Below, piece after piece: positions 31,236 through 32,181 of a stretch of 64,000 nt of DNA. This DNA comes from an uncultured Dehalococcoidia bacterium. Lineage in GTDB: Bacteria > Chloroflexota > Dehalococcoidia > Lucifugimonadales > UBA3495. Within the stretch, counting starts at the first letter, position 1; each line of letters begins with the position of its first letter. The stretch spans positions 1,377,029 to 1,441,028 of the forward strand of contig OX638345.1 in NCBI GenBank assembly GCA_951813535.1, written 5' to 3'. A model generated the notes under the pieces. The model had not been told where the DNA came from. It saw only the letters and a program-made list of their open reading frames with translations, and searched no databases. Position numbers and translations under genes: made by a program.

Positions 31236-31653
31236 AACTGTTCCTCCTTGCGGTGTTTCGTGAAGTGGGCCGACTGTTTCTGTTGCCTCCGGATTGGTTC
31301 AGGCGGGCATCCCGTCTCGCTCGGTCGGACACGCGCTACTCCCAGCGCGTGGCCCATCTGCCCATACATCGATCACCTGAACCTGTCTCTGCTTGTTTCG
31401 GACCGTTCCCGCTTCCCTTCTGAGTAGCGAGATGGTGCACATCTTACATCGATTTGAACGGGAACCGACCCCATGCCTCGCAATTGCCGCAGGTTGCGCT
31501 GGTTGGGCCTACCAGGCATTCATGCCTGTACCGGATGCGATTGGCTGTTGGGTTAGCCTCGCCATTCGAACCCCTCGAACGGCCCGGGGATGTTCTTTGT
31601 GCCGCGGGACGCTGCGTGATAGTGTTGCGCCATTCTCGAGATCTGGAGGAGTC
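31236..31653. other. 418-bp divergent intergenic region before the OsmC gene
   Basis: Separates the PEP-mutase-family gene (minus) from the OsmC gene (plus). No protein-like frame with a ribosome site; no clear -35/-10 pair. The last 12 bases hold CTGGAGGAGTC, the OsmC ribosome site. Confidence 0.4.
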
Positions 31654-32181
31654 ATGGCAGCACATAACGAAAGACCCGAGCCCAACTACGACCCGTTTCC
31701 GCCCGGTCAGGACCGTCGCGCCACCGTCACGGAAGTGGACGTGGAGGACATGGGTGACATGCTGCGGCGGGCCTTCGTGGGACGGGACGTGAAGTTCACC
31801 ATCTATTGCGATGAGGGACCCAATGCCGGCGGCAATCACACCGCCCCCGCGCCGCTGCACTATTTCGCCTCTTCCATCGCGTTTTGAGAGATGACGCAGA
31901 TCGAGAGGTACTCTCGAATGATGAACGTGGAGATCACCGGCGTCAGGGCCCACATCGCGGTGCACTTCGGGCTTGAGGGATCGGTGCTGGCGGGCACGAT
32001 CCAGGCCAGCGCTCCGAAGGTGGAAACCAGCTACGAGATCGAGTCACCGGATGATCCGGAACGGGTGGCAGCGGTGCTGCGCAATGCTCGCAACGGGTGC
32101 TGGGTGCGGGCCGCGGTTGCCAATCCCACCCCGTTCGAGGACCGGTCGACGCTGAACGGGGAGCCGATCTTCTTCGACTGA
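31654..32181 (+). CDS. OsmC-family peroxiredoxin-like selenoprotein (in-frame TGA = Sec78)
   Basis: 175 residues if TGA at 31885-31887 is read as selenocysteine. GGAGG lies just before ATG 31654. The codons after the TGA stay in the same frame (31891 is exactly 79 codons from the start), so this is a single in-frame stop, not a frameshift. OsmC/Ohr proteins have a reactive Cys at the start of a long helix after a P-x-P-L-x-Y segment. Here that region reads APAPLHYFASSIAF-TGA-EMTQIERYSRM, placing the TGA on the reactive Cys. The second conserved Cys is present as Cys149 in LRNARNGCWVRAAVANPTPF. A hairpin 13 bases past the TGA has SECIS geometry. Expected role: thiol/selenol reduction of organic hydroperoxides in the cytosol. 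Alternative: a nonsense-mutated pseudogene, made unlikely by the site and the hairpin. Confidence 0.82.
31888..31917 (+). promoter_or_regulatory. putative bacterial SECIS element
   Basis: Directly after the TGA: a 13-nt linker, then TCGAGAG (31901-31907), loop GTA, CTCTCGA (31911-31917), a perfect 7-bp stem. The loop starts with G and lies 20 nt after the TGA. Bacterial SECIS elements are known to be short stems inside the coding region with a small apical loop, a G at its first or second place, and roughly 16-37 nt from UGA to loop. All of this would be read by SelB. Confidence 0.75.

Follow-up and report, generated by a model that had tools for sequence, protein, structure and literature searches.

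A SECIS-like hairpin after an in-frame TGA in a predicted OsmC-family selenoprotein gene of a Dehalococcoidia bacterium

The window analysed here is a stretch of 64,000 nucleotides from the genome of an uncultured Dehalococcoidia bacterium. It contains an OsmC-family gene that is interrupted by an in-frame TGA and preceded by a Shine-Dalgarno-like sequence (Table 1). The gene stands alone, with a convergent LUD-domain gene on one side and a divergent PEP mutase-like gene on the other, and this LUD / OsmC / PEP mutase-like order is the same in several of the closest relatives. When the TGA was translated as a residue, the OsmC domain (Pfam PF02566) was detected at residues 60-162 with a score of 45.2 bits (cut-off 27.5), and it continues in frame past the TGA.

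Table 1. Coordinates of the OsmC gene, its recoding elements and the other OsmC gene found in this genome. Positions are those of the window unless another coordinate system is named.
Feature	Position	Strand	Details and basis
Shine-Dalgarno-like GGAGGAG	31645..31651	+	Shortly upstream of ATG 31654, short spacing; direct reading of the sequence
Predicted OsmC-family selenoprotein gene	31654..32181	+	ATG 31654, in-frame TGA 31885, stop TGA 32179-32181; 175 residues with U78; translation, Pfam, profile, fold
UGA predicted to be read as selenocysteine 78, peroxidatic Cys position	31885..31887	+	Alignment to Cys OsmC of known structure; TGA in 53 distinct homologues
Probable SECIS hairpin, 7-bp stem TCGAGAG/CTCTCGA, loop GTA	31901..31917	+	13 nt after the TGA (31888-31900); TCGAGAG 31901-31907, GTA 31908-31910, CTCTCGA 31911-31917; sequence, RNA fold, covariation, synonymous-codon null
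Cys149 TGC codon, predicted resolving Cys	32098..32100	+	Alignment
Second OsmC gene, TGA at the resolving Cys	L020 1426-1884; G000:C1 about 1126234-1126692	-	OsmC by Pfam

The nearest solved structure by profile is that of the Jannaschia OsmC-like protein (PDB 3cje), which was matched by the profile of the gene's relatives with an E value of 1.5e-22; other OsmC proteins were matched too. In the profile alignment U78 falls at the peroxidatic Cys, and C149 coincides with the second Cys. Translation and the alignment with 3cje showed that U78-E-M-T81 forms a UxxT motif. The two proteins have the C-x-x-T arrangement and the second Cys in common, but 3cje carries Cys where the window protein would carry selenocysteine (Sec). 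Cys149 is invariant in the homologue alignment and is aligned with the second Cys of both 3cje and 2onf. The predicted structure (mean pLDDT 87.5) matches OsmC/Ohr structures. The fold and the conserved U78, C149 and E54 suggest a peroxidase of the OsmC/Ohr type acting on organic hydroperoxides.

The hairpin lies immediately downstream of the TGA. An earlier note, made from the sequence alone, had proposed at this place a perfect 7-bp stem with a GTA loop, beginning 13 nt after the TGA and with G as the first loop base 20 nt from it. Sequence and RNA folding confirmed every part of this description. All seven pairs are of the Watson-Crick type, and the codons beneath the stem are ATC GAG AGG TAC TCT CGA, encoding I-E-R-Y-S-R as the note had read them. 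The same hairpin can also be paired as a 6-bp stem with a GGUAC loop. The E. coli fdhF SECIS contains a bulged U, which is absent from the stem in the window.

The published model of bacterial SECIS elements describes a loop of 3-9 nt, a stem of 4-16 bp, a spacing of 16-37 nt between UGA and loop, a G within the first two loop positions and a minimum free energy of -7.5 kcal/mol or lower (PMC13188914). The SECIS prediction suggested in the note was carried out as a comparison by hand with this model, and the hairpin agreed with it on every point. It has a 7-bp stem and the loop GTA, it lies inside the coding region with a spacing of 20 nt, the first 33 nt past the UGA fold with -8.7 kcal/mol, and the structure is kept with UGA and absent with Cys codons. 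The short apical loop, the G start, the G[G/U] pattern and the 20-nt spacing are shared with the consensus of the bSECISearch model (PMC13188914), from which no essential difference was found; the stem in the window is short and perfect. At gathering thresholds no SECIS family of Rfam was matched, which is uninformative for elements so variable.

The exact hairpin motif occurs only once in the window. A SECIS-like hairpin with at least 7 Watson-Crick pairs follows 19 of the 1636 TGA triplets of the window (1.2%), which is common enough by chance to make the bare hairpin weak evidence, so that the argument has to come from conservation. The other recoded-TGA candidates found by scanning the window for hairpins were all chance-like, and the fold of the 61-nt segment is unexceptional (z -0.58).

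Homologues were searched for in Chloroflexota genomes, and 53 distinct sequences with TGA at codon 78 and 10 with a Cys codon were obtained. The closest named relative is a SAR202 bin with 97% identity. Nearly all TGA homologues retain the stem through compensatory changes, with G starting the loop. In the main register (45 loci, some of them fetched twice, giving 32-33 distinct sequences) the stem positions pair at 92-93%, compared with 37-53% when the register is slid, and one base away a second register (12 loci with 8 distinct sequences) gave 98% compared with 27-52%; sorting the loci by register beforehand tilts these figures somewhat upward. Without sorting, and taking the better of the two registers for each sequence, mean pairing was 97% for 43 distinct TGA sequences versus 52% for the 10 Cys sequences. 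The covariation score of the main register (32 distinct sequences) was 0.69, against 0.22 after shuffling and at most 0.16 after sliding, and two-sided changes were seen at 6 of the 7 stem pairs. The covariation check proposed earlier therefore came out in favour of a SECIS: the stem covaries in the presence of TGA and is absent with Cys. Three TGA loci (L049, L058 and L062, of which L049 and L062 mark one and the same site) carry a bulged hairpin of another form, with the loop AGTCT, in place of the common register. In one further TGA homologue (L045, in G136) the matched stretch was reported with one TAG besides the TGA, possibly the gene end. On the tree the Sec label is strongly clustered, with 2 changes versus 9.4 after shuffling, the deep branches being uncertain. 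No relatives of the gene were found in the viral contigs searched, and the plasmids searched held only distant Cys OsmC proteins with less than 30% identity.

The host genome (4.38 Mb, one contig) contains the complete set for Sec synthesis and insertion, namely SelA (445 bits), SelB, SelD (370 bits) and a tRNA-Sec with the anticodon UCA. SelD (L014, G000:C1 1105770-1106690, minus strand) is itself a predicted selenoprotein with the motif CAG-U-AAK, and its in-frame TGA is followed by the hairpin GGACCT-GGGCC-AGGTCC, whose loop starts with GG. SelB was found in 16 of 20 genomes of the order that lack this OsmC gene; its co-occurrence with the gene adds little and was discounted as evidence. 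Among the draft genomes bearing the TGA, 2 of 40 gave no SelB match.

The hairpin might have no function in the RNA and exist only because the peptide I-E-R-Y-S-R is conserved. It does lie in conserved coding sequence, and in three homologues (L080, L083 and L085) the stem is only weakly significant against the synonymous null because the peptide favours it. However, when the peptide of the window was re-coded synonymously in 2000 shuffles, p was 0.003 for the fixed register and about 0.0005 for any hairpin following the SECIS rules, so the stem is not dictated by the protein sequence. The shuffles were exceeded in most homologues, none of the 10 Cys homologues was significant, and pairing is kept while the peptide varies. 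The comparison of L070 with Sec relatives such as L080 also argues against a peptide effect. L070 (G649), the sole Cys protein close to the Sec group among the 10, reads TGC (CTTATCACACAACTCGCTCGTTTTGCCCCC) and has the peptide C-LITQLARFAP in synonymous codons that abolish the stem, whereas Sec relatives have the near-identical U-LLTQLARFAP and a full stem. The peptide explanation is largely refuted and appears very improbable. In the genome of L070 a SelB match persists despite the Cys version of the UxxT subfamily and the lost stem.

Alternatively, the TGA at 31885 could be a genuine stop codon, or could result from a sequencing error or from a lesion in a pseudogene, and translation might restart at ATG 31891. 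An in-frame ATG does lie 3 nt past the TGA, and the gene's own terminator is an ordinary TGA. But 53 distinct homologues, spread over many genera and families, have the same TGA, and the protein downstream of it is conserved. We discarded reinitiation at ATG 31891, as this ATG is unconserved, many relatives reading UGA CUG CUC at this place. It is also conceivable that the UGA is recoded to another residue such as Trp, or is read through without a dedicated signal. We found no point supporting this, and the homologues have Cys rather than Trp at this position, next to the complete Sec machinery, the tRNA-Sec(UCA) and the conserved signal hairpin. Each of these two explanations is even less probable than the peptide effect, with hardly any weight left to it.

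On computational grounds we are thus highly confident that the hairpin is a bacterial SECIS element, the identity proposed for it in the earlier note, and that the UGA at 31885 is decoded as Sec in a predicted OsmC/Ohr-type peroxidase; the published model, the covariation and the Sec machinery of the genome all support this reading. SelB, loaded with Sec-tRNA-Sec(UCA), would bind the hairpin in the mRNA, and the ribosome would consequently decode the UGA as Sec instead of stopping. Sec78 of the thiol (selenol) peroxidase would then attack the hydroperoxide, and Cys149 would resolve the selenenic acid formed on Sec78.

OsmC-like selenoproteins with a UxxT motif were described in 2005 and 2008, with 3 sequences from the Sargasso Sea (PMC1088965) and 5 from GOS (PMC2398784), and they also appear in reviews (PMC9312934, PMC13188914). 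Judged by its sequence, the protein encoded in the window is an OsmC-like selenoprotein of this family. It shares with the published members PF02566, Sec at the Cys position, the UxxT motif and a SECIS-like hairpin downstream (PMC1088965, PMC2398784). The published sets comprised 3 and 5 Sec sequences among many Cys forms (PMC1088965, PMC2398784), in contrast to the Sec-dominated subfamily across Chloroflexota found here, together with a single-contig genome holding the Sec machinery. Both the type of signal and the type of protein are already known, and the evolutionary evidence for them at this locus is unusually clear.

Another OsmC gene of this genome (L020) retains the peroxidatic Cys and carries TGA as the codon of the resolving Cys (K-R-U-P-L-Y), a position that was checked against Ohr. 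This TGA is followed by the hairpin GGTCGC-CGTG-GCGACC. Among its Chloroflexota relatives the six-pair stem is kept in 25 distinct TGA sequences, two of them with G-U pairs, and the pair closing the loop varies between C-G, G-C and A-U. The close Cys relatives (L091, L109, L115 and L118) are without the stem. Because the peptide VAVAT by itself promotes the stem (p about 0.05 in each sequence), the evidence in this group consists of the covarying closing pair and the contrast with the Cys forms. We found no report of Sec at the OsmC resolving position in the open-access literature, selenoprotein reviews included. It seems fairly likely that Chloroflexota have two separate Sec versions of the OsmC fold, one peroxidatic and one resolving (R-U-P-L-Y), the latter in this genome and many others, each with a conserved SECIS.

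In conclusion, our results correct the annotation of a truncated OsmC gene in a lineage of marine and sponge-associated bacteria. They also suggest that Sec is the main form, in part of the Chloroflexota, of a peroxidase family of which few Sec sequences had been known. Pairs of Sec and Cys homologues offer a clean natural test of the bases needed by a SECIS. Two Sec positions in one fold would allow a direct comparison of peroxidatic with resolving selenium.
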